From assembly GCF_012221945.1 (NCBI RefSeq), contig NZ_CP032549.1:1116001-1180000 (forward strand): 64,000 nucleotides of DNA, in the 5' to 3' direction. Positions 16,056-64,000 of the stretch are shown here, piece by piece (position 1 is the stretch's first letter; the number at the start of each line of letters is the position of its first letter). Under the pieces are notes generated by a model that was not told the origin of the DNA, did no database searches, and worked only from the letters and a program-made list of their open reading frames with translations. The DNA is from Glutamicibacter mishrai (GTDB taxonomy: Bacteria; Actinomycetota; Actinomycetes; Actinomycetales; Micrococcaceae). Made by a program: the position numbers and the translations under genes.

Positions 16056-16815
16056 CGCTCATGCCTCCGTCGATGAAAATGGTTTGCCCGTTGACGTAGT
16101 TGGAGCCATCCGATGCCAGCCAGATGGCCGGGCCGGCCAGGTCCTCGACGGTGCCCCAGCGGGCAGCCGGGGTGCGGCCCAGGATCCACGAGTTGAACTT
16201 TTCATCGTCCACCAGGTTCTGGGTCATCTCAGTGTGGATGTAGCCCGGTGCGATGCCATTGATCTGCAGTCCAGCGCCAGCCCATTCGGCGGTCATGGCG
16301 CGGGTGAGGTTGCGCAGGCCGCCCTTGGCTGCGGTGTAGGCGGAAATGGTCGGGCGGGCCAGGTCGGTTTGCACCGAACAGATATTGATGATCTTGCCTT
16401 CGCCGCGTTCCACCATGCCGCGGGCTACTTCGCGTCCTACCAGGAAGGCGCTGGTCAGGTTGGTATCGATCACTCGCTGCCAGTCGGCGACTTCCAAATC
16501 CAGCATGGGCACGCGGTGCTGGATTCCGGCGTTGTTCACCAGGATGCGGATGGCGCCGATGTTCTTTTCGATGGCTGCGATGTTCTCGCGTACGGAGGCG
16601 TCATCGGTGACGTCGAAGCAGACGCTGTGGACCCGCTCTTCTCCGTAGCGGCTGGTGAAGTCCGCAGCGGTTTCGGCCAGGCGCTGTTCGTCCCGGCCGT
16701 GCAGGATGATGGTGGCTCCGGCGTTGGCCAGGGCGCGGGCCAGTTCGCGGCCGATGCCGCGGGAGGACCCGGTGACTAGGGCCAATCGTCCGGATAGGTC
16801 AAAGAGTTGACTCAT
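16045..16815 (-). CDS. idnO: Gluconate 5-dehydrogenase (short-chain dehydrogenase)
   Basis: A 256-residue SDR starting at ATG 16815, preceded by GAGGGA; a longer frame to 16893 has no ribosome site. The cofactor motif TGSSRGIGRELA, NNAGIQHRVP and the catalytic pair in SAYTAAKGG (YxxxK) are present. IdnO reduces 5-keto-D-gluconate to D-gluconate. It is coupled to IdnD, so the pair interconverts L-idonate and gluconate. Other polyol SDRs look similar; the partner gene makes this the best call. Confidence 0.85.
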   Translation of the reverse strand: MSQLFDLSGRLALVTGSSRGIGRELARALANAGATIILHGRDEQRLAETAADFTSRYGEERVHSVCFDVTDDASVRENIAAIEKNIGAIRILVNNAGIQHRVPMLDLEVADWQRVIDTNLTSAFLVGREVARGMVERGEGKIINICSVQTDLARPTISAYTAAKGGLRNLTRAMTAEWAGAGLQINGIAPGYIHTEMTQNLVDDEKFNSWILGRTPAARWGTVEDLAGPAIWLASDGSNYVNGQTIFIDGGMSVVV

Positions 16816-52774: not shown

Positions 52775-53836
52775 ATGAACCCCGCCCCCGGCTCGACCAG
52801 CGCACACCCCGCTGCTGGTACCCGCCCCTCCGCCAGAATCACCGCAACCCGCCGGCTACTAGCAGGACCAGCCCCTGGAATCCTGCTCTGCCTGGTGGTC
52901 GGTGCGCTATGCATGCTGATCAGCCATTACCTCAGCTCGGTGAGCGCACTGTTGATCTCCATCGTGCTCGGTGCCCTGTGGCGCAACCTCGCGCCGGTGC
53001 CCCACGTGCTTGATGCCGGGGTGGGGCTTTCAGCGAAGAAGCTCTTGCGGATGGGCATCGTCCTCTTGGGATTCCAGCTGTCGCTGGGATCCATTCTCGC
53101 CCTGGGCCCCGGAGTGCTGCTGGTGGTACTCGCCTCGGTCACCATCACGTTTTTGCTCACCGCATGGATCGGCAAGCTGATGGGCCTGGATCTTGAACAA
53201 CGGCTGTTGATCGCCATCGGTCTTTCCATTTGTGGTGCGGCTGCGGTGGCTGGCGCGGAAGGAACCATCAAAGCCAAGGAGCATCAGGTAGCCACGGCGG
53301 TAGGGCTTGTGGTGTTTTTTGGAACGCTGATGATTCCTGCGATGCCGGCACTTGGCCTGCTCTTGGGCCTGGATGATCGAGGCATCGGGATGCTCGTCGG
53401 GGCGTCCACCCACGAGGTAGCCCAGGTCGTGGCCGGTGCCGGATCGGTATCCGCCGCGGCGCTGGCTGTTGCCGTCACCGTAAAACTAGCGCGAGTCCTC
53501 TTGCTCGCCCCGGTCGTTGCCGGTGTGGGACTGTATCTGCGTCGCCAGCACAGCGTCCATGGCGATAAGAATCCGCCCTTGGTGCCGCTGTTCATCCTCG
53601 GGTTCCTGGCAACGATGCTCCTGCGAACCACCCTCGACCTGCCCGGAGCATTGCTCGACAGCGCCTCGATGGTGCAGACGCTGCTCCTATCGGCTTCGAT
53701 GTTCGCACTCGGGCTCGGCGTGAACCTACGCAGCATCTTCACTACCGGGATCAAGGCGCTGCTTCTGGGCTTGATCGCAACGCTCATCATCATCATTATG
53801 GCAGCCAGCGGAACCGTGCTTTTCCCGCCGACCTAG
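52775..53836 (+). CDS. YeiH-family putative sulfate/sulfite exporter
   Basis: A 353-residue UPF0324/YeiH protein with about ten membrane segments. Motifs are LRMGIVLLGFQLSLGSILALG, SICGAAAVAGAEGTIKAKE and ASTHEVAQVVAGAG. Members of this family are predicted to export sulfate or sulfite, for example with taurine degradation, but transport has rarely been shown. It is paired with a divergent LysR gene; no sulfonate catabolic gene is adjacent. Confidence 0.9.
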   Translation: MNPAPGSTSAHPAAGTRPSARITATRRLLAGPAPGILLCLVVGALCMLISHYLSSVSALLISIVLGALWRNLAPVPHVLDAGVGLSAKKLLRMGIVLLGFQLSLGSILALGPGVLLVVLASVTITFLLTAWIGKLMGLDLEQRLLIAIGLSICGAAAVAGAEGTIKAKEHQVATAVGLVVFFGTLMIPAMPALGLLLGLDDRGIGMLVGASTHEVAQVVAGAGSVSAAALAVAVTVKLARVLLLAPVVAGVGLYLRRQHSVHGDKNPPLVPLFILGFLATMLLRTTLDLPGALLDSASMVQTLLLSASMFALGLGVNLRSIFTTGIKALLLGLIATLIIIIMAASGTVLFPPT

Positions 53837-54184
53837 TTTTGTAGCCAGCAGAGGACGTCGGCCACGCGAGACTTTCCTCGAAACGGGCCTTGGCCAAAAG
53901 CCAATATTGACGCGCTAGTTCTATTGGCAAATATTAAGCCAAGTTGTCTTTTAGGACCCTTCATCACGGATTGCGGGTCGCCTTCTGGGAGCGGCACGAC
54001 TTTGCCTCTTGAAGTCCCCAGAGAATGCGGCAAAGGAACTTGCCTGAATTCAGAACTCGATCATCCGAAGCTCTGAATCCTGGACAAGTCCCTTTGCTGC
54101 GCACTTTAAGACCAAGGATCACGATGGCGCACCAAGCCGGTCCGCTGTAAACCTTTCCCACTAACCCTCTGGCTCCGTTGTCGT
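53837..54184. other. Intergenic stretch at the edge of the AT-richer island
   Basis: About 350 bp without a supported gene. Two minus-strand frames of about 65 codons overlap each other here and match nothing I recognise; they look like decayed sequence. The main feature is the long inverted repeat at 54026-54103. Downstream the base composition shifts. Confidence 0.5.
54026..54103. repeat. Long imperfect inverted repeat
   Basis: GCAAAGGAACTTGCCTGAAT (from 54030) continuing to CAGA at 54054 mirrors TCTGAATCCTGGACAAGTCC continuing to CTTTGC at 54097, about 25 bp per arm with two or three mismatches, extended by TGCG/CGCA on the outside. There is no T-run, so it is more likely a relic of a mobile element end or a MITE than a terminator. 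Confidence 0.6.
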
Positions 54185-54409
54185 TTAGTCAGACGCTATC
54201 TCGCGATGTTGTCTCTTGAAGAACGACAAAATCCTTTCCGCAGGAGTGGCAAGGAATTCGAAATCTACATGATCTTCTCTCTCGACGACTTCTTCGTCAT
54301 TTTGCCGGCTACGCCCCGCGGCTGGTATGCCTCGCTCGCCTGCAGCATTTACGCCTTGGGGATCCAAAGCACGTAATAGAGTATTGATGACTACATCTTC
54401 GTAAGCCAT
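54185..54409 (-). CDS. Hypothetical small protein at the operon end
   Basis: A 74-residue protein (MAYEDVVINTLLRALDPQG at the start, rich in Glu/Arg, ending FKRQHREIASD). AGAGG precedes the ATG at 54409; an earlier start at 54442 is possible. It is not recognised. It lies 76 bp after the TIM-barrel gene on the same strand, so it may be the last gene of the operon. Confidence 0.45.
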   Translation of the reverse strand: MAYEDVVINTLLRALDPQGVNAAGERGIPAAGRSRQNDEEVVEREDHVDFEFLATPAERILSFFKRQHREIASD

Positions 54410-54485
54410 GGTGATGCCTCTTAACCCTTGCTCTTCAGGCACTATGAAATTACCGAACTGCCTTAAGAGACCGGAACATTAGTGA

Positions 54486-55490
54486 TCAATTCTGGGAGAG
54501 TTCAGAATCGTAGTATTCGATTCCTTCACGAATTTCACGAATCGGATCAACAGACATATCGATTTCCGCTACACCCCAGCCAGACCACTGCTGTTCTTTC
54601 AGAGTCATGGTCCATTTGCGCCAATCAACAATTCCCTTTTCACCCATAACTCGGAACGATTTGATCATCACGTCATGTCGTTCCATCGGTGTTCCGCTCA
54701 ATTTGTGCGGGGGTAAATGTGCTGCACAGTCTTTCCAATGAAGTATCGGCGCACGTAGAGCATGCTTGCGAACCACGCTCACCGCGTCGCTTCCGTCAAG
54801 AGCGATATGCCCCGCATCTATGCACAGCTTCACCAAATTCGGATCCGTAATGCTCATCAGGGTGTCTATATCCTCGACTCGTGATGCCAGTGAATAGGCG
54901 TCTGTATGAATCGCGAGATGCACTCCGCTCTCGGAAGCAATTTTCCCTGCGCCTTCCAGCACGTCAGCGATGGATCCCATAAGATCAGGATCGGCAGGCT
55001 TCGCGAATGAATCGGCCGATGCTTCGACTCCGGCCGTTTCCGAGAACTCTGCCCTGGGCACGGTGCTAGTAATCATCGTTTGGCATCCCACCTCACGAAG
55101 AAATTCGGCATGTTGCGCCGTCTCCTCATGAAGCCGGTTCAGGGCAACGGCCCTGCTCTTGGCGTCTGGGGCGTCCACGACTGCCTTGAGCGCTATCGGC
55201 AACACATAGCTCGATGAAAGTACGAGGCCGCGCCGGTCTAGCTCCTTCTTGAAAGCAGTAGCGGTCCCATAAGCACGCAACGCATTAACCCAACCACCGG
55301 GTGCTGGCGCTAATTCGATGCCGCTAAGTTGTGCTTCGGCAGCGCCGTCCAGCATTTTGTCAAAGAACCGATGAGGGTCCTCGTCAACTTTTCTTTCCCA
55401 CTCGCTGTAGGCCTGCTCAGCGGGCATATCCCAATATTCAGGGTTGAAAAAAGTGACAATGTCAGTGCTCCATCTCAAGTCCAGGCTCAT
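54486..55490 (-). CDS. Sugar phosphate isomerase/epimerase-type TIM barrel (IolE/LgdB-like)
   Basis: A 334-residue AP-endonuclease-2 type barrel. Putative metal ligands lie in SGIELAPAPG, LAIHTDAYS, CIDAGHIAL and GVAEIDMSV; HWKDCAAH gives a further His. Related proteins are inosose dehydratase IolE and the eliminating or hydrating barrel enzymes LgdB and C-deglycosidase alpha, which act on 3-keto sugars. The start ATG overlaps the upstream oxidoreductase stop (ATGA). It probably acts on the keto-product of that oxidoreductase (inference). Confidence 0.8.
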   Translation of the reverse strand: MSLDLRWSTDIVTFFNPEYWDMPAEQAYSEWERKVDEDPHRFFDKMLDGAAEAQLSGIELAPAPGGWVNALRAYGTATAFKKELDRRGLVLSSSYVLPIALKAVVDAPDAKSRAVALNRLHEETAQHAEFLREVGCQTMITSTVPRAEFSETAGVEASADSFAKPADPDLMGSIADVLEGAGKIASESGVHLAIHTDAYSLASRVEDIDTLMSITDPNLVKLCIDAGHIALDGSDAVSVVRKHALRAPILHWKDCAAHLPPHKLSGTPMERHDVMIKSFRVMGEKGIVDWRKWTMTLKEQQWSGWGVAEIDMSVDPIREIREGIEYYDSELSQN

Positions 55491-56626
55491 GCCGTCACCT
55501 CGTCTACCGCTACCCATTGGTGGTTATCAGCAGATTGCATTACAGCTTCAATGACGCGCTGAGTACGTGTCGCTTCCGCGAACCCTGGCGTACCCGGCCG
55601 TCCTTCGACGATGGCACGTACGAACTTTTGAAGCTGCAGGGATGCATCATCTGCATAACCCGTTCCCATACCGCCCAATGGGTACCAGTAATCCTGGTGA
55701 TTTTCGTTCAACGTGATAGTCCGGAAGCCTTGCTTGTCTGGGTCATCGCTGACCAAGCTGAGCTTGATTTCGTCAGTGTGGTTCCAGTCAAATTCAACGG
55801 TGCCGCCCGTGCATTCAAGTTCAAAAAATAGCCGGTTCTTGCGCCCCGAGGCGTACACCGTCGCCGCGAATGAACCAATTGCGCCGTTTTCGAATTTGGT
55901 CATCCACAAAGCCGCGTCATCGAGATGGTCTCCGGCTTTCCTTTCTTCGTCCGAAAGCCAGGCAGTGTTACTTTTCGGATTCTTTGCGCCGACAATTGCG
56001 TTAACCGATTCAATGTCTCCAACGAGATACGAAGCCAAATCGATGATGTGAGAACCGATATCGCCTGTAACGCCAGATCCACCGGCAGACTTCTTGGCGC
56101 GCCACCCGCTCAAGACACGTCCGAGCGCTCCGACATCTTGCGTGTAGTGAGCACGGAATTGCAATGGATGGCCCAGGGTCCCGTCATCAAGCATGTTCTT
56201 GATCAAGGTAATTGCAGCTGCATGGCGATAGTTGAAGCCCACTTGGCTCACCGATGAGCTCTTTTCGGCCGCTGCTTGCATGATCTCTGCGTCCTGAAGC
56301 GTATTGCTGATGGGCTTCTCGACGAACACATGCTTACCGGCCTGCAGAGCTGCCACAGCGATTTCTGCATGCGACCCTGGAGGAGTCACAATATCGACAA
56401 CATCAATGTCGTCCCTGGCGATAACAGCACGCCAGTCATCCGACCATTCTTCCCAATTTAGTCGTTGCGCTGCCGACTTTGCCCGTTCTTCATCGGCTTC
56501 AACAAGTACGGCCTTGCGAACGACTGCACCTGCATCGGCTGTGATGGGAGCCAATGCCCATCCAAGGCTGTGGGCATACCCCATGAAGCCACCACCACCG
56601 ATAATTGCAACTCTAATCTCGTTCAT
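55487..56626 (-). CDS. Gfo/Idh/MocA-family oxidoreductase 1 (inositol/levoglucosan dehydrogenase-like)
   Basis: A 379-residue NAD(P)-dependent dehydrogenase: Rossmann GGGGFMGYAHSLG, VEKPIS (catalytic Lys), then an alpha/beta domain with GDIGSHIIDLASYLVGD (catalytic Asp/His). The GFMGxAHSLxxA entry and overall length resemble levoglucosan dehydrogenase (LgdA) of Arthrobacter relatives, which oxidises C3 of an anhydrosugar. Inositol dehydrogenases are the other near group. Coupled to the TIM-barrel gene by a 4-bp overlap. Confidence 0.86.
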   Translation of the reverse strand: MNEIRVAIIGGGGFMGYAHSLGWALAPITADAGAVVRKAVLVEADEERAKSAAQRLNWEEWSDDWRAVIARDDIDVVDIVTPPGSHAEIAVAALQAGKHVFVEKPISNTLQDAEIMQAAAEKSSSVSQVGFNYRHAAAITLIKNMLDDGTLGHPLQFRAHYTQDVGALGRVLSGWRAKKSAGGSGVTGDIGSHIIDLASYLVGDIESVNAIVGAKNPKSNTAWLSDEERKAGDHLDDAALWMTKFENGAIGSFAATVYASGRKNRLFFELECTGGTVEFDWNHTDEIKLSLVSDDPDKQGFRTITLNENHQDYWYPLGGMGTGYADDASLQLQKFVRAIVEGRPGTPGFAEATRTQRVIEAVMQSADNHQWVAVDEVTA

Positions 56627-56704
56627 TGTTTTTCCTTATGCTCGTTATTTCTGTTTTATGCAGATCAGATGGGAATGCACCTGGTAATCCTGCAGAGTCG
56701 TTCA

Positions 56705-57679
56705 TCAGTTGGCTGGAATGCCGTGTGCCTGAACGGAAAACTCATGGAGCTCGTCCCAGCTCGGCATTGCCAATGAACATTGCGGTCTCGTCGCGACCAG
56801 AGCGCCTGCGGCATTAGCGAGGTCCAGTGTTTCCTGCAACGACATCCCTCTGAGCAGCGCATGGCACAATGCACCTCCGAATGCGTCACCTGCTCCCAGG
56901 CCGTTGATTACATCTACTGGAATCGGCTTGGACTCAACGCGTTGCGTACGGGTTCTTGCCATTACGCCTTCGGGGCCCATCTTGACGATCGCCAATTCCA
57001 CGCCACGATCCAACAAGGCCTCTGTTGCCCGGTCCGGGTCAGTTTCCCCTACTGCAACTCGACACTCTTCGAGATTTCCAACTGTCACCGTGACATGGTC
57101 CAGCGCCGTGGAAACGGCTTGGTGCGCTTGGTCCTCGTCTTTCCAGAACATCGGACGATAATCCAGGTCCAAGATGGTGTTGGGCTTACGCCCGCGTTTT
57201 TCCCAGGCCATGATGTGGGCAGACTGCGTCGGTTCCTTAGACAAGCCCGTGGCGGTTGCCCAGAAAATAGGGCTCTTCGCAATGAGGTCCAAAGGCAGTT
57301 CGTCACCATTAATGTACATATCCGGAGCAGTAGGCTCGCGATAGATATACAGAGGGAAATTATCCGGTGGGAAGACTTCGCAAAAAGTCAGCACCGATTT
57401 CATTCCGGCTACGGCTGTTATCCCCGTGTTGTCTACACCAAGGCGGGCAATTTCATTTTTGGCATACTCCCCGAACGGGTCGTCACCGACGCGACTGATC
57501 AGCCGTACGGAATTTCCGAGCTGTGCTGCAGCTACCGCAACGTTCGTTGCGCTGCCTCCAATCGACTTGCTGAAGCTGGTGATTTCCTCAAGCCCGACTC
57601 CGAATTGTTCCGGATACAGGTCGATGCAAACTCGACCTATCACCACGACATCGGCTTTTTGGTCCATCCTGTTGTTCAT
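56705..57679 (-). CDS. PfkB-family kinase, IolC-like (5-dehydro-2-deoxygluconokinase)
   Basis: A 324-residue carbohydrate kinase. It opens with VVVIGRVCIDLYPEQFGVGL and GGSATNVAVAAAQLG, has CEVFPPDNFPLYIYREPTAPD, and ends in the ATP/anion-hole motif NGLGAGDAFGGAL. These match IolC, which phosphorylates 5-dehydro-2-deoxygluconate in inositol catabolism. The DUF2090 tail fused in some IolC proteins is absent. The start overlaps the upstream aldolase stop by 4 bp (ATGA). IolB, IolD and IolJ are not encoded here, so the substrate may be a different keto-sugar acid. Confidence 0.87.
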   Translation of the reverse strand: MNNRMDQKADVVVIGRVCIDLYPEQFGVGLEEITSFSKSIGGSATNVAVAAAQLGNSVRLISRVGDDPFGEYAKNEIARLGVDNTGITAVAGMKSVLTFCEVFPPDNFPLYIYREPTAPDMYINGDELPLDLIAKSPIFWATATGLSKEPTQSAHIMAWEKRGRKPNTILDLDYRPMFWKDEDQAHQAVSTALDHVTVTVGNLEECRVAVGETDPDRATEALLDRGVELAIVKMGPEGVMARTRTQRVESKPIPVDVINGLGAGDAFGGALCHALLRGMSLQETLDLANAAGALVATRPQCSLAMPSWDELHEFSVQAHGIPAN

Positions 57680-58587
57680 CGTTCTTCTGTCTTTCGAATT
57701 CGCTCTGCTATTGATTGCAAGTTCTTTGGCGCATGAGAGCGCAGGTAATCGCCAGGATCTGCCGCCCTCGTTGCACGGCTCCAAACAGCCCGACCAGCCA
57801 GAAACCCGCTTGCTCCACCCGTCACTGCTGCCAAAACCGCTTCAGGAAATTCTTCGGCAGAAACGCCGGAGGAAAGAACAACCCAAGGGCAGTCAAGTTC
57901 GCGAGTGATTGATTTGGCTGTTGCTACTGCCAGTGCTCGATCTTGTTCGCCACCATAGAGGACCTCGGTCTTATATAGGTCTGGCTGCACCTTTGACAGG
58001 TCCGATGCGGCCATGATGAGCGCTTCCGAGAAGCCTTCGGCCGATTCCAGATGCCCCTCGCGTGGCCTGACAACGCCCTCGAGCACTCCCGGAATTCCAA
58101 ACTCGCGGCACCGCTCCATGAAGGCATGAGCAAGCTCGACGGCTTCGGTTCTGCGGTTGGGCTGCCAGGGCAGTAGAAACTTCAAAGCCTTCGCGCCAAA
58201 AGCTTGAACAGTTTCGAGAGTCACAGAATCATCAAGTTGAGCGATGTCCATGGGATCACCAGGCTGGCTGGAGCTCAAGATATCGGCGGCCAGGATTACC
58301 GGGCACTGTGCGTTTCTCGCTGCTTCTAGCCCGTAATCTTGGTCAAGCAATAGGCCGCTTGCCTGGTCCCCGATAGCCAGAGCCAAGTCAGTCTTGAAAC
58401 TGGACAATTCATCGTCCGCAATTGCAGCACCCTGCCGGCCTTCACTCAGCATGTGACGTAGCGAGCCTCGCTGATCTACTGCGACCATACTGAACATTCC
58501 GTACTCATCACGGAACACATCGATTGGGCCACGTGGGACAGGATCGACATTTGTCTCGTAGCTTGTTTCTTCGATATGAGCGCTCAT
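57676..58587 (-). CDS. LacD/YihT-family class I aldolase
   Basis: A 303-residue barrel with the family marks FSMVAVDQRGSLRHML, LLDQDYG, AKALKFLLPWQPN (Schiff-base Lys in this region) and VVLSSGVSAEEFPEAVLAAV-type end, then GASGFLAGRAVW. The same order is seen in tagatose-1,6-bisphosphate aldolase LacD and sulfofructosephosphate aldolase YihT. It would cleave the phosphorylated product of the IolC-like kinase into two C3 units. Overlaps both neighbours by 4 bp. The substrate is not known. Confidence 0.83.
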   Translation of the reverse strand: MSAHIEETSYETNVDPVPRGPIDVFRDEYGMFSMVAVDQRGSLRHMLSEGRQGAAIADDELSSFKTDLALAIGDQASGLLLDQDYGLEAARNAQCPVILAADILSSSQPGDPMDIAQLDDSVTLETVQAFGAKALKFLLPWQPNRRTEAVELAHAFMERCREFGIPGVLEGVVRPREGHLESAEGFSEALIMAASDLSKVQPDLYKTEVLYGGEQDRALAVATAKSITRELDCPWVVLSSGVSAEEFPEAVLAAVTGGASGFLAGRAVWSRATRAADPGDYLRSHAPKNLQSIAERIRKTEER

Positions 58588-59552
58588 CGGATCACCACCG
58601 GATTAACTGGGGCGCCGCTTGCGCCAACAATCTTGAGGGGCGCAGCAGTGTAGAGAAACTTCCACCGATTGTCTGCTGCACAGGCATCAGCCAACGAATC
58701 CAATTGGCACAGTTCAGTGAAGGCGACCCCGAGATTGCGCATCAAGGCGCAATGCAGCGGAAGCTGGAGTCCCCCGGGGTAGAAGCTCAATTCGTTCGCA
58801 ATGGTGTCAGTAACCAAGTTCGGGATTTCCATTTCCTGGAACCAATCCACTAGTTCGGGACTGTAGATCAATCCTGGTTCGTTCCAATCGTCAAAGAACT
58901 CAGAGCTCTGGGTCCGATAGTACGAGCCAATCCAGCCGGTTCTAATCAGCAATATGTCGCGATTGGAAATTTCGATATTTTGAAGCTTGGCGACATCCAA
59001 AAGATCTTGCAGAGTGATGGTTTCACCGCGTTGAAGCGCATCTTTGCCGCGGGCACGCGCCACGTCGATCAGAACACCTCGGCCAACGACACCGCGTTCA
59101 GCAATTGGCAGTACCGATGCCTTGCTCAATTCGCCCACAGTGCTTTCCGCCGGATAACCATTCCAGACCTTGCCGTCGTACCAGTAGTGAGCTAGCGCGT
59201 CGTACTGCGTCGACCCCTGCGTGAACATTTCGATCTTGTCGTCCGCCCAATGATGGCCATCGGACGGTTCTTCTTCTTCACCCCTGATGAAATAACCTTC
59301 GTCCATGACTGGGGTACGTACTGCGGGCTCACGGCCGGGCCACACCGGATCAGGAAGGTCGGGGTCACCGATGGGTACCTGAAGCGTATGAACCTCACCG
59401 GACTGGACTGATGCAATTCCTTTCAGAATTTGGGCTGCATCCAAGTAATTGAGGCTGCCGACCTCATCTTGCTCGCCCCACTTGCCCCAATTCTTCGGCG
59501 CGTTCGGGCCAAGCAGTTCGTTGATAGTAGTGGCAATGACGTTCTGAGACAT
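58584..59552 (-). CDS. Cyclase-family metal-dependent hydrolase (kynurenine formamidase fold)
   Basis: A 322-residue PF04199-type protein. The metal-site signature reads QGSTQYDALAHYWYDG instead of the standard HxGTHxDxPxH, so the first His and one Thr-His are changed to Gln/Ser/Gln, as in a longer subgroup of the family. Further conserved parts are DILLIRTGW and ELCQLDSLADACAADNR. Family members hydrolyse amides, lactones or cyclic diketones. In this operon a ring-opening or lactonase step is plausible. Start ATG 59552 follows AAAGGTGG. Confidence 0.8.
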   Translation of the reverse strand: MSQNVIATTINELLGPNAPKNWGKWGEQDEVGSLNYLDAAQILKGIASVQSGEVHTLQVPIGDPDLPDPVWPGREPAVRTPVMDEGYFIRGEEEEPSDGHHWADDKIEMFTQGSTQYDALAHYWYDGKVWNGYPAESTVGELSKASVLPIAERGVVGRGVLIDVARARGKDALQRGETITLQDLLDVAKLQNIEISNRDILLIRTGWIGSYYRTQSSEFFDDWNEPGLIYSPELVDWFQEMEIPNLVTDTIANELSFYPGGLQLPLHCALMRNLGVAFTELCQLDSLADACAADNRWKFLYTAAPLKIVGASGAPVNPVVIR

Positions 59553-59647
59553 GTGTCCACCTTTCAAATTTGAGTGGCCATCAAGGGCCCGCGTCCAATT
59601 TTGTAAATCTTCGGATACCGCCTATGGCGCCAGGCAATCCGAATTAC

Positions 59648-60523
59648 CTAGTTGGCGGTCTTTGCTTGTTCAAGCAATCGCTGGATATAGAGGGCTCGAT
59701 TCACGTCAATCTCGTGAGAATTGCCAGACCTTACGACTTCGGCGAATTCTCGGCGAATAACGTGAGGCGTCTCAGGGTCACCGTCTTTGCCCACGAATTC
59801 GCATTCGAGTTCGCCGTCTTCGGTATACACCTTGACGCCGGCTACGTCAGCGACGACGGGGCTAGTGAGCGACAATGCGGCCTGGCTCAACACCCCGTTC
59901 TCGTGAGTAACCGACAAGATGTACCAGCGCTGCGGGTCGCCTTCACCGCGAACTTGGGTAATAGGCCCAACTGCCGCGTCCAAGGTGTCCAAAACGTGCG
60001 GCCCAAGATCGAGGAGGCCGCCTTTTTCAATTCGCCAAGGAGTTGCAAAAGTGCCACCTGGAAGTGCTGCCTGGTTGATGTAGCTTCCAACAGCGCCAAT
60101 CGGCTTCTGTTTCCGCGCATCAGCCAAGAATTCACGAATGCGTGGGCTGAACCGGTTAGTGAACATGACCTGCGTAGCTACGTTGGCTTCATTCAAGGTG
60201 CGCGCTAATTGCTCAGCCTGTTCAAGATCCACACCAAGTGGTTTTTCCAACAGCATCGGTTTGCCGGCCGGTGCGGCCCTTGCCGCCAGCTCCGCCTGAA
60301 TGAATGGCGGGACGGCGAAGACAATTGCATCTACGGACTCAACCAAGTCTTCGAAGGAGCCGGCGACTACGCCTCCGAACTCATCAACGATTTCCTGGGC
60401 AGCTTCTTGTCGACGAGCCCAGACAGCCGTAAGCTCCGCTTCGGGGCCTCCGGTGATCATTGGCGCATGAAAAATCTTTGCCCACGGGCCAGCACCAACG
60501 AGTCCAATTTTTACTGCAGACAT
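59648..60523 (-). CDS. Gfo/Idh/MocA-family oxidoreductase 2
   Basis: A 291-residue, shorter member of the family: Rossmann VGAGPWAKIFHAPM, EKPLGVDLEQAEQ (catalytic Lys) and GGLLDLGPHVLDTLDAAVG. It is only distantly related to oxidoreductase 1. Two Gfo/Idh/MocA enzymes in one operon would allow an oxidation and a later reduction, as in the levoglucosan and 3-keto-sugar routes. It follows the permease gene with a 118-bp gap and precedes the cyclase with a 95-bp gap. Confidence 0.84.
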   Translation of the reverse strand: MSAVKIGLVGAGPWAKIFHAPMITGGPEAELTAVWARRQEAAQEIVDEFGGVVAGSFEDLVESVDAIVFAVPPFIQAELAARAAPAGKPMLLEKPLGVDLEQAEQLARTLNEANVATQVMFTNRFSPRIREFLADARKQKPIGAVGSYINQAALPGGTFATPWRIEKGGLLDLGPHVLDTLDAAVGPITQVRGEGDPQRWYILSVTHENGVLSQAALSLTSPVVADVAGVKVYTEDGELECEFVGKDGDPETPHVIRREFAEVVRSGNSHEIDVNRALYIQRLLEQAKTAN

Positions 60524-60641
60524 TTAGTCCTACTTTCTTTTGTTGTTTCTGTTCATTGCGGAGACAGTCGACATCTTCCGCAATGCAATGAATTCCATGA
60601 ACGTTTCAGCCCACTTCAAATTTCCGAGCTTGAAAGCTCCG

Positions 60642-62111
60642 CTAGGATCGGTCACCTTCTGCACGGCCAAGGCAGCCATACAAATTGGGATGCATACGTT
60701 TCATCCGAATCGCAACCAGACAGCCCGCGCTGATGAACAGGATCGGGATCAGCAGGAGCCAAAGCCGTTCTCCTGGCTCTCCGCCGACGAGAAGATCGAA
60801 TCGAACAAGGGCAAACACCACGACTGCACAAAGAATGAATGCGGCGATCAGAGGCGCAGTTTTCACCCGCCACACTGATTCACCAGCCGGAAGGCCAGCA
60901 ATAGCGAAGTATCGGACTACTGCAAAACTCACCAAGGCCATCAGGGACAAGACCCCTGCCGTTCCCAAGCCACTGCCAGTTCCGATAACTAGGTCCTCGT
61001 CGTGAATGATGAGCCCACCAAGAATGAGAAGTACGCCGACCAGAACAGAGTTTGTTACCGACGCTTTGTATGGCGACTTGTGAACCGGGTGTACAGCAGC
61101 CAAGAAGCTCGGAAGAGCATGATCTGCACCGAGGTTCTGAAGGTATCGTGCAACCACATTGTGTGTAGATAGCACTGATGCCAGCGCTGAAGTTGCTACC
61201 AAAACCAGCGTCACTGTGGCCAAGCTGCTGCTGACGTAAGTTGCCATCGCTGAATCAAACATCGTTGTTGGGTCATCAACCGCATGCGAGACCGCGCTTG
61301 GTCCATAGGCGGTAATCATTGAGTACGCAGAAATCGCGTAGAACCCGCCGATGAGGAAGACAGCCATATACGTTGCCCGAGGAATCGTCTTTCCTGGATT
61401 TCGAACTTCGTCTCGATACAGGGCAGTTGCTTCAAATCCGACGAAATTTCCGAAGGCAAACAACAATGCCATACCCGTACCGGCATTCAAGAACTTGGCT
61501 GGGTTCAGGGGCTCAACTGACAGCCCACTTTCACCGCCCTTGCTGAGAACGACGACGTTGAAAATTGCTACCAAGATAATCTCCAGGACCATGACGATGC
61601 CCAGTACCTTGGCGGAAAGTTCAATTTGGAAGTGGCCAAGGACGGTGATGACAATCCAACTGGCTGCAGTGCACACGTACCACGGGATAATTGGTCCACC
61701 TAGGGCTTCTACAGCGGAAGAAACCATTGTCCCGGTAAATGTGTAGATGCCAACCGTAATCAGCATGTAGGAAACTGTTGCTAGGTATGCTCCGCCAAGT
61801 CCAAGCGTCTTCCCGAGCCCCAGTGAAATGTAGGCGTAGAAAGCTCCTGGGCGTTTGATGTGCTTAGTCATGGTGGTATAGCCAACCGCAAAGATCGCTA
61901 GACCGATAGTCGCCACAACCCAGGCCAGAGGCGCCGTTTCGCCTACAAAGCCAATTGCGAAGGCGATATAGCCCGAAACGGTCACAATGGGAGCGGAAAA
62001 GGCGAGGACGCTCAGAACTAGCGACGTTGCCCCTAGGTTTCCTGACAATCGAGTATTTGATGACGGGAGTTGTGAAGACAACGCCGCTACATCCTTGGAT
62101 GTTTTAGTCAT
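60642..62111 (-). CDS. APC-superfamily amino acid/amine permease
   Basis: A 489-residue APC permease with about 12 membrane segments (LGATSLVLSVLAFSAPIVTVSG, FVGFEATALYRDEVRNPGKTIPRA in part). This longer subgroup carries amino acids or amines. The ATG at 62111 follows AAGGA; the longer frame to 62192 has no ribosome site. First gene of the minus-strand operon and its probable uptake system, which suggests that the substrate may contain an amino group (inference). Confidence 0.87.
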   Translation of the reverse strand: MTKTSKDVAALSSQLPSSNTRLSGNLGATSLVLSVLAFSAPIVTVSGYIAFAIGFVGETAPLAWVVATIGLAIFAVGYTTMTKHIKRPGAFYAYISLGLGKTLGLGGAYLATVSYMLITVGIYTFTGTMVSSAVEALGGPIIPWYVCTAASWIVITVLGHFQIELSAKVLGIVMVLEIILVAIFNVVVLSKGGESGLSVEPLNPAKFLNAGTGMALLFAFGNFVGFEATALYRDEVRNPGKTIPRATYMAVFLIGGFYAISAYSMITAYGPSAVSHAVDDPTTMFDSAMATYVSSSLATVTLVLVATSALASVLSTHNVVARYLQNLGADHALPSFLAAVHPVHKSPYKASVTNSVLVGVLLILGGLIIHDEDLVIGTGSGLGTAGVLSLMALVSFAVVRYFAIAGLPAGESVWRVKTAPLIAAFILCAVVVFALVRFDLLVGGEPGERLWLLLIPILFISAGCLVAIRMKRMHPNLYGCLGRAEGDRS

Positions 62112-62196
62112 GGTGGGTTCCTTGGAGAGAGGGAGGAAACGAACCGCACTTGCCGGTCGTGTGATGCGAAGCACCGGTGCGATGGCCACCACACTA

Positions 62197-62216
62197 CCTA
62201 ACGACCGTAAGTTAGG
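62197..62216. promoter_or_regulatory. Operator-like palindrome 1 (CCTAAC...GTTAGG)
   Basis: CCTAACGACCGTAAGTTAGG is a 6-8-6 inverted repeat about 85 bp upstream of the permease start. It shares CTACCTAACG with palindrome 2 (reverse orientation). TetR-family regulators of actinobacteria often bind CTAACG-N-CGTTAG sites. Confidence 0.65.
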
Positions 62217-62279
62217 GAAGAGGTTGTTTGTTTTTGTTTACAAGACGTTTACGAGCCCCGAAAAATTCACCCTAGACAT

Positions 62280-62295
62280 CCTAACGAACGTTAGG
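62280..62295. promoter_or_regulatory. Operator-like palindrome 2 (CCTAACGAACGTTAGG)
   Basis: A perfect 7-2-7 palindrome about 73 bp before the flavoprotein gene, just after a possible -10 (TAGACA). With palindrome 1 it suggests that one repressor, probably TetR-type and encoded outside the window, controls both divergent transcripts. Confidence 0.72.
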
Positions 62296-62367
62296 TAGCG
62301 TTGTGGTAATCAAGAATCATGTTCTACATAGATGCAAGAATTACCTGTAGTTTCATTAGGAGATATT

Positions 62368-63657
62368 ATGTCCATTTATACAAATTATTTGTCAGGCGTC
62401 AGGCCGGACGGTGGACATCATGATGAAAAAATTTCAGCCCATGTTGCGATTGTTGGATCCGGCCCAACCGGATGTTTCGCCGCACTTGCGATGCTCAAAT
62501 GTGTCCCCGAAGTACGAATTACAGTCTTCGAAGCCAGACCTACTCCATACGGACTTTTACGCTACGGAGTGGCTCCTGACCATCAAGGAATGAAAAACGT
62601 GACTCGGCAGTTTGAGCGGTTATTCGGATCGAACCAAGTCGAATTCGTAGGCAACGTTCGAATCGGGCAAGATCTCCCTTTTGAGGTCCTCCAGGAAAAC
62701 TTTGATTTTGTAGTCATAGCGACAGGGCTTCCTTCTGAACGGGCACTTCCCGTGCCGGTCCACCCCGGTGCCAAGGTTTGGGGCGCCAGCCAGCTGCTTC
62801 GCTACCTCAACGCCGATCCAGACAGTGACCTGCGCACAAGAGAAACTGTGGAATTAGGCGATTCTGTTCTCATCATCGGCTCAGGAAATGTCGCAATGGA
62901 TGTAGCGAGATTACTCGCCAAGTCCGATGAAGGTTTTGACGGATCGGATGTCGATGACGCGGCTCGAGAAGCGTTAGCACCGTCGAAAATTACTCGCATC
63001 ACGTTGCTCTCCCGAAGCCCCTACGAACAAGTTCGTTGGGATCCGTCGATGTTCAAGGAGCTGTGCTCCATCCCCGGTGTTGAGGTCTATCTGGACGGAA
63101 GACGCTCCACGGAAGAGACTGACACATCCTCGGGGCCAACGCGCCATCAACCACTTCGCGTCGAAGTTTTTTTCAACCAGAAACTGCGCGAAATCGACCT
63201 CCAGGAAGACAATGCCTATGACAATCAACTAATTGTCAGAACGCAAAATGGAACATCTGACGCTCACCTGTCCGCCGAGTCTCCCAAAACGTCCTTTCGG
63301 GCATCGGCTGTCATTGCAGCGATTGGCTTCGAAGAGCGTCGTATCGGTTTTGGCGAAGTTCCTGCCGACAATGTACTTCGCACCGGCGGGTGTGCTACCG
63401 GCCGGCTAGGAAACCTCGCCGAAAACCGAGCGCTTGCAAAACAGACTGCGCAACTGGTCGCCGCAAAGGTGGGAAAACAATCCGAACTCACGGGTTTGGC
63501 CGGGGTTGCACCATTCCTGACTCAAACTCCGGTTTCATTTTCTGATTGGAAAGCCATTGATGAAGCTGAAATAACTAGGGCACGGCCCGGTCGCATCAGG
63601 CAAAAGTTCACATCATGGTCCGAAATGAGCGACGTAGTCGCACAGACGCGCAGCTAA
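62368..63657 (+). CDS. Adrenodoxin-reductase-type ferredoxin-NADP+ reductase (FprA-like)
   Basis: A 429-residue flavoprotein with FAD motif IVGSGPTGCFAALAML, the GLLRYGVAPDH segment of the FprA/adrenodoxin reductase family, NADP-binding IIGSGNVAMDVARLL and a C-terminal ATGRLGNLAENRALAKQ part. It passes electrons from NADPH to a small ferredoxin or flavodoxin. ATG 62368 follows TAGGAGA. The flavodoxin gene 57 bp downstream is its likely acceptor, and the pair probably serves a P450 or another oxygenase beyond the window. Base composition is clearly less GC-rich than in the left part. Confidence 0.88.
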   Translation: MSIYTNYLSGVRPDGGHHDEKISAHVAIVGSGPTGCFAALAMLKCVPEVRITVFEARPTPYGLLRYGVAPDHQGMKNVTRQFERLFGSNQVEFVGNVRIGQDLPFEVLQENFDFVVIATGLPSERALPVPVHPGAKVWGASQLLRYLNADPDSDLRTRETVELGDSVLIIGSGNVAMDVARLLAKSDEGFDGSDVDDAAREALAPSKITRITLLSRSPYEQVRWDPSMFKELCSIPGVEVYLDGRRSTEETDTSSGPTRHQPLRVEVFFNQKLREIDLQEDNAYDNQLIVRTQNGTSDAHLSAESPKTSFRASAVIAAIGFEERRIGFGEVPADNVLRTGGCATGRLGNLAENRALAKQTAQLVAAKVGKQSELTGLAGVAPFLTQTPVSFSDWKAIDEAEITRARPGRIRQKFTSWSEMSDVVAQTRS

Positions 63658-63714
63658 TAACTCTTTGCTTCACCGTACAAATCAACCGACACCTAATCAC
63701 AAAAGGAAACACCG

Positions 63715-64000
63715 ATGACTCAAGTCAACGTTTGGTATGGAACAGAATCCGGAAACGCAGAAATGGTGGGAGATGAGATCGCCGCAGCACTTTCCTCCAC
63801 GAGGTTCACGAGCAATTTAAGCGAATTACCCGAGATCAGTGTTTCAGACGTTTCCAACGCAGAACTCACCATTTTCGTTACTTCCACCTACGGCGAGGGC
63901 GGGCTGCCGGCAACGACAGAACCTTTCTACGACGCGCTGTCGGCTGAACGCCCAGATCTAAGCGGGCTCAAGTTCGCCGCTTTCGGATTGGGAGATCGCA
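63715..64000 (+). CDS. Flavodoxin-like protein, cut by window end
   Basis: The first 95 codons are visible. WYGTESGNAEMVGDEIA is the FMN phosphate loop and STYGEGGLPATTEPFYDAL the next FMN loop of flavodoxins and of diflavin reductase domains. AAAGGA precedes the ATG. It could be a single-domain flavodoxin like cindoxin, which works with FprA-like reductase and a P450, or the start of a longer diflavin reductase; the window ends before this can be told. Confidence 0.85.
   Translation, partial: MTQVNVWYGTESGNAEMVGDEIAAALSSTRFTSNLSELPEISVSDVSNAELTIFVTSTYGEGGLPATTEPFYDALSAERPDLSGLKFAAFGLGDR

Follow-up and report, generated by a model that had tools for sequence, protein, structure and literature searches.

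Breakdown of myo-inositol by the canonical pathway proceeds through IolG, IolE, IolD, IolB, IolC, an aldolase and IolA. In rhizopine catabolism, part of the moc genes provide an oxygenase-type front end, and the use of rhizopines outside rhizobia reportedly includes Arthrobacter. In published accounts, the moc rhizopine genes are described (PMC10107442), rhizopine use outside rhizobia is cited (PMC12897901), and a Thermotoga route leads via diketo-inositol to 5-keto-L-gluconate (PMC5931981). Here, we describe an island of Glutamicibacter mishrai that has the look of a full route, under joint control, for uptake, P450 oxidation and ring opening of an inositol-like compound, with none of the ring-opening enzymes usual in inositol breakdown.

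The window, which is the whole stretch of 64,000 nucleotides that was analysed (G000:C1:1116001-1180000), belongs to a single-contig genome of 3.57 Mb. The features of the island are as follows:

53838..64000, no strand: island, from its left border to the window end (empty site in G763 and G759; GC drop)
L002:16391: right border of the island, 4,390 bases beyond the window end
54486..55490, minus strand: IolE-fold TIM barrel, probable dehydratase
55487..56626, minus strand: GfoA, a Gfo/Idh/MocA dehydrogenase (best model LgdA, 323.6 bits, cut-off 650)
56705..57679, minus strand: IolC-type PfkB kinase (TIGR04382, 359.8 bits, cut-off 300; alignment with canonical IolC)
57676..58587, minus strand: YihT/LacD-type class I aldolase (PF01791; closest solved relative YihT, 142.6 bits)
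58584..59552, minus strand: cyclase-family hydrolase, proposed ring opener (PF04199)
59648..60523, minus strand: GfoB, a short Gfo/Idh/MocA dehydrogenase (Pfam; 56% relative in S. meliloti MABNR56)
60642..62111, minus strand: APC-family permease (PF13520; relatives adjoin amine oxidase and Rid genes)
62194..62216, no strand: operator-like inverted repeat near the permease promoter
62280..62298, no strand: operator-like inverted repeat near the reductase promoter
62332..63657, plus strand: XplB-like FAD reductase (start possibly at 62368; 34.7% to the reductase beside the KTR9 P450)
63715..64000, plus strand: start of a flavodoxin-P450 fusion of 552 aa (whole gene L002:11716-13374)

The island was horizontally acquired and precisely inserted. 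Flank matching gave an insert of 14.55 kb and an exact empty site in two genomes of the same genus, where the match ends at L002:1837 and restarts at 16392 in G763 (14 bases between) and at 16398 in G759 (34 bases between); in both, the gene at 52775-53836 adjoins the SDR gene that forms the right flank of the island. GC content is 0.50-0.55 in the island versus 0.61-0.62 in the flanks. Furthermore, the flank genes lie about 15, 15 and 8 kb apart in G751, G760 and G758, all three of which lack the aldolase, so that the site may accept other inserts as a possible insertion hot spot. A 74-codon open frame at the island's left end (window 54185-54409, minus strand) was given no function, and the acyl-CoA dehydrogenase gene to the right of the island in Glutamicibacter JC586 (G762:C3:547334-548469) matched in two separate pieces.

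All the genes named in the preliminary description of the operon are present on the minus strand (54486-62111) with the Pfam assignments claimed, and the tight unit read from gene overlaps is borne out by three ATGA start/stop overlaps in the sequence, namely hydrolase/aldolase (58584-58587), aldolase/kinase (57676-57679) and GfoA/barrel (55487-55490). However, that description stopped mid-system, with the P450 gene only beginning in the window and the island continuing past its end, and it missed the divergent XplA/XplB-like P450 system, the island's TetR, VOC and MFS genes, and the canonical iol genes that the strain carries elsewhere. The minus-strand operon is half of a larger unit.

Among the operon products, the barrel has IolE as its closest fold relative and scored 90 bits with the NCBIfam IolE model, far below the cut-off of 290; the two Gfo/Idh proteins likewise fell far short of the NCBIfam IolG cut-off (103 and 60 bits against 355) and of that for LgdA. 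The kinase is 57.7% identical to an IolC sited within an iol cluster. As for the hydrolase, the altered metal motif noted earlier (QGSTQYDALAH) is real, but it is nearly the same in the PDB relative 5ibz (QGSTQWDALSH) and is thus a subfamily trait; no NCBIfam model matched this protein at 1e-3, in a collection that may not hold an IolN model. The GfoB relative in S. meliloti MABNR56 (locus L088) adjoins a cyclase-family gene and is paired with a LacD aldolase; together with the DUF1537-like kinase and importer genes of that locus, they suggest a parallel acid-sugar pathway. A conserved cluster of a Gfo/Idh gene (about 40% to GfoA), a TIM barrel, an importer and E1/E2-type thiamin-enzyme genes lies on pRM41A of S. 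meliloti Rm41 (L089:8526-25398), the plasmid linked with calystegine use, and at L090.

On the divergent side, the fusion gene is followed outside the window by the TetR, VOC and MFS genes. The fusion joins an N-terminal flavodoxin (PF00258) to a P450 (PF00067), and the domain test placed it in the XplA family. XplA is the best solved relative of the P450 part (386 bits), and the whole fusion is 44% identical to one on the Gordonia KTR9 plasmid pGKT2, whose gene we take to be XplA and whose record calls it cytochrome P450. A formaldehyde dehydrogenase above the cut-off was found less than 2 kb from the XplA-like P450 in three of seven non-carrier loci (S. chiapasense, Sphingobium and a second P9-64 locus); none is annotated in the other four (KTR9, Enterobacter and two Klebsiella), where plasmid annotation is incomplete, nor in the R138 island stretch. 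Enterobacter and Klebsiella plasmids (L006, L039, L041) carry a stand-alone module of reductase, separate flavodoxin, XplA-like P450, MFS, TetR and APC genes, without the sugar genes.

The two halves share a putative regulatory pattern. CCTAACN{2,8}GTTAGG has two copies in the window, where 0.01 would be expected; both lie in the divergent promoter, and each of the eight carriers of the island has inverted repeats of this kind in its divergent region. Such repeats also lie ahead of VOC in five carriers (source genome, R138, UNC23MFCrub1.1, P9-22 and AT1), and AT1 has one ahead of its displaced APC gene. On a plasmid of Arthrobacter StoSoilB3, repeats with three mismatches stand before two gene groups, an amine oxidase-Rid-APC-AcrR operon and an SDR-FAHD pair; a search of a Klebsiella stretch gave no copy of the pattern. 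We infer that the TetR protein probably binds these putative operators and controls the island.

Ten genes (barrel, GfoA, kinase, aldolase, hydrolase, GfoB, reductase, P450, TetR and VOC) stand together in every one of the eight carriers: G. mishrai, Arthrobacter S41, Glutamicibacter JC586, the R. erythropolis R138 plasmid pLRE138, Rhodococcus UNC23MFCrub1.1, Mycolicibacterium P9-64 and P9-22, and Mycobacterium AT1 (on two contigs). The neighbourhood search proposed in the preliminary description thus returned a linked unit, and a distinct pathway is supported. Other genes are less constant: APC was present in seven carriers, being missing from the 20-kb stretch of one, ALDH in three, and MFS in four at 60% coverage, with several loci ending there. 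Near the R138 island copy, L004:151-3148 holds a DegT/StrS aminotransferase gene along with another VOC and another TetR gene. At 24 loci with aldolases of 35-43% identity, some of them short, none of the other nine core genes was found at 60% coverage, and one had a weak ALDH match. The aldolase itself occurs in three of the 18 genus genomes, counting that of G. mishrai, and in one of 394 of the class, that of G. mishrai again. Among 396 genomes of the order, 15 have hydrolase relatives, G. mishrai being one of them. Near the 14 others (55-61% identity) no further core island gene was found, in stretches of which one spans only 3.5 kb, so that the hydrolase may have other substrates. A search with VOC gave 51 proteins, five of them on contigs that match those of aldolase hits in length. 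Moreover, the hydrolase-kinase-aldolase trio is kept in Amnibacterium with other dehydrogenases and a ribose-type importer, in a locus with no P450 and no permease of the island kind.

The claim that the rest of the inositol pathway is lacking holds locally, as IolD and IolB are absent from the island by Pfam and NCBIfam, but it fails for the genome, where IolD, IolB and a second IolC lie about 0.49 Mb away. There, near 1.65-1.66 Mb, IolD (832.9 bits) and IolB (272.5 bits) are above their cut-offs, the canonical IolC matches the island kinase at 52%, and IolA-, IolE- and IolG-like genes were recognised by eye. Eight genomes were searched for IolB and IolD (seven carriers, leaving out R138, plus Amnibacterium), and six held both above the cut-offs; most could therefore use the canonical route in part. 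IolD was 0.42 and 0.49 Mb from the island in two of these and on another contig in the four draft genomes. In the remaining two, Amnibacterium and JC586 (G762, 100% complete), neither IolB nor IolD was above cut-off, and in JC586 the sole IolC match is the island copy, with no canonical IolC; in the genus, canonical IolC occurs in nine of 18 genomes. Thus, IolD is not next door in any of the carriers searched, and since JC586 has the island and lacks both IolB and IolD, as a hydrolase in the place of IolD would require, the island needs neither: it is independent of IolB and IolD.

Taken together, we tentatively favour, as a possible reading of the gene content, a probably TetR-controlled catabolic island for a substituted cyclitol, likely methyl- and/or amine-bearing. 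The APC permease would import the compound, and the XplB-like reductase would feed the XplA-like flavodoxin-P450, which may strip a methyl or N substituent. GfoA would then produce a ring ketone, the IolE-like barrel would dehydrate it to a deoxy-dione, and GfoB, or a ketol shift, would lead to a 1,3-dione. The cyclase-family hydrolase, a plausible ring opener in the place of IolD, could cleave a C-C bond of this 1,3-dione to give 5-keto-2-deoxygluconate directly, so that under this proposal IolD and IolB would not be needed. Phosphorylation by the IolC-type kinase and cleavage by the YihT-type aldolase would yield DHAP and malonate semialdehyde, which ALDH, where carried, could oxidise. This reading draws on the linkage of the ten genes and the operator pattern between the operons; on a kinase that passes the IolC model and a barrel nearest IolE in fold; on JC586 and the Amnibacterium trio without IolB and IolD, the former also without canonical IolC; and on the GfoB-like, cyclase-family and LacD aldolase genes of S. 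meliloti MABNR56. For the ring-opening logic, the Thermotoga diketo-inositol route serves as precedent. Weighing against the reading are the six searched genomes that hold both IolB and IolD, the amine oxidase found beside the operon in a single carrier, the P450 loci with no annotated formaldehyde dehydrogenase, the hydrolase relatives that lie apart from other island genes, the carrier stretch that lacks the permease, and the Klebsiella stretch that lacks the operator pattern. Chemistry and substrate are inferred throughout, and it is quite unlikely that both more specific proposals are right, namely an XplA-type P450 acting as demethylase and a cyclase-family hydrolase doing the work of IolD and IolB in one step.

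Clues to the substrate come from neighbours of related genes. Relatives of the APC permease (53 and 46%) in StoSoilB3 and S. chiapasense adjoin cyclohexylamine-oxidase-like flavoenzymes and Rid-like genes, and AT1, alone among the carriers, has an extra cyclohexylamine-oxidase-like gene beside the operon. These three amine oxidases are 51-69% identical to each other; the other genomes searched gave relatives at only about 30-34%, and the R138 plasmid none. With the formaldehyde dehydrogenases, these neighbours hint at a ring that is methylated and bears an amine; rhizopine is one such compound already known. What makes us lean towards an amine-bearing substituted ring, rather than levoglucosan or plain inositol, is the P450 together with the APC permease and the amine oxidases that adjoin permease relatives, and our leading guesses are rhizopine-type aminocyclitols and iminosugars.

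An iminosugar such as 1-deoxynojirimycin or fagomine would call for different chemistry: the P450 would hydroxylate the carbon next to N to give a nojirimycin-type hemiaminal, a Gfo protein would oxidise this to a lactam, the hydrolase would open it, and the second Gfo would turn the amine into 5-keto-gluconate or its 2-deoxy form for the kinase and aldolase. PF04199 enzymes hydrolyse amides and lactams, as kynurenine formamidase and isatin hydrolase do, fagomine would directly give the usual substrate of the kinase, and the permease, of APC type with amine oxidase-linked relatives, fits as well. Such a pathway is nonetheless unlikely, given a barrel nearest a cyclitol dehydratase, the Amnibacterium trio with its ribose-type importer and without such a P450 or permease, and a literature search on deoxynojirimycin as sole carbon source that found no such pathway among the papers it listed. 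The amine connection weighs in the opposite direction on N-free cyclitols or methyl-cyclitols (pinitol, ononitol), for which the P450 would only demethylate and the remaining steps would be those of the substituted-cyclitol model. Three of the products (kinase, barrel and GfoA) look like cyclitol enzymes and formaldehyde dehydrogenases accompany some XplA-like P450s, but a permease of the amino-acid/amine APC family whose relatives adjoin amine oxidases makes this version seem rather improbable.

Two unrelated functions might also simply travel together, one a P450-permease-TetR module directed at a xenobiotic or an amine, the other an operon for cyclitols or sugar acids. Indeed, P450, flavodoxin, reductase, TetR and APC stand alone on the Klebsiella and Enterobacter plasmids, and the Amnibacterium trio has no P450; the linkage of ten genes in all eight carriers, with operator-like repeats between the operons in each, renders such a coincidence very unlikely. 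If the substituted-cyclitol reading is true, XplA-type P450s, known from explosive degradation, would gain a natural role and setting, and another opening of an inositol-type ring would be added, in which a PF04199 hydrolase replaces an isomerase and a thiamin enzyme. The island would further show how soil and plant-associated actinobacteria may feed on modified cyclitols, and JC586, with the island and without IolB or IolD, is a genome where the ring-opening claim is directly testable.

Compared with known systems, the P450 half resembles XplA/XplB of RDX degradation in domain order, length of 552 aa and a reductase gene ahead of the P450, but it is joined to a cyclitol-type operon, and an explosive is unlikely to be its substrate. 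No YihQ-type glycosidase or YihS-type isomerase domain, the sulfo-EMP partners of YihT, was detected among the scanned operon, reductase and right-side island proteins. Two Gfo/Idh/MocA proteins and an isomerase-like TIM barrel recall the levoglucosan pathway (LgdA, LgdB1, LgdB2, LgdC), although GfoA reaches only half the LgdA cut-off, the single barrel, instead of two, is nearest IolE, and the hydrolase, kinase, aldolase and P450 are extra. By description, rhizobial rhizopine catabolism (mocDEF, mocR, mocBA, mocC) shares a Gfo/Idh/MocA dehydrogenase and the proposed oxygenase-type front end, whereas the island has a P450 rather than mocDEF, an APC permease, and TetR rather than MocR. The Thermotoga route, likened here by its described chemistry, would have in common a dione formed first and then opened by a hydrolase to a keto acid, but the island adds an IolC-type kinase and an aldolase. 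In brief, the island shares with the canonical myo-inositol pathway an IolC-type kinase above the cut-off, an IolE-fold barrel, Gfo/Idh dehydrogenases and a DHAP-type aldolase, and it differs in a hydrolase of another family, a YihT-type aldolase, and an added P450, reductase, APC permease and TetR.
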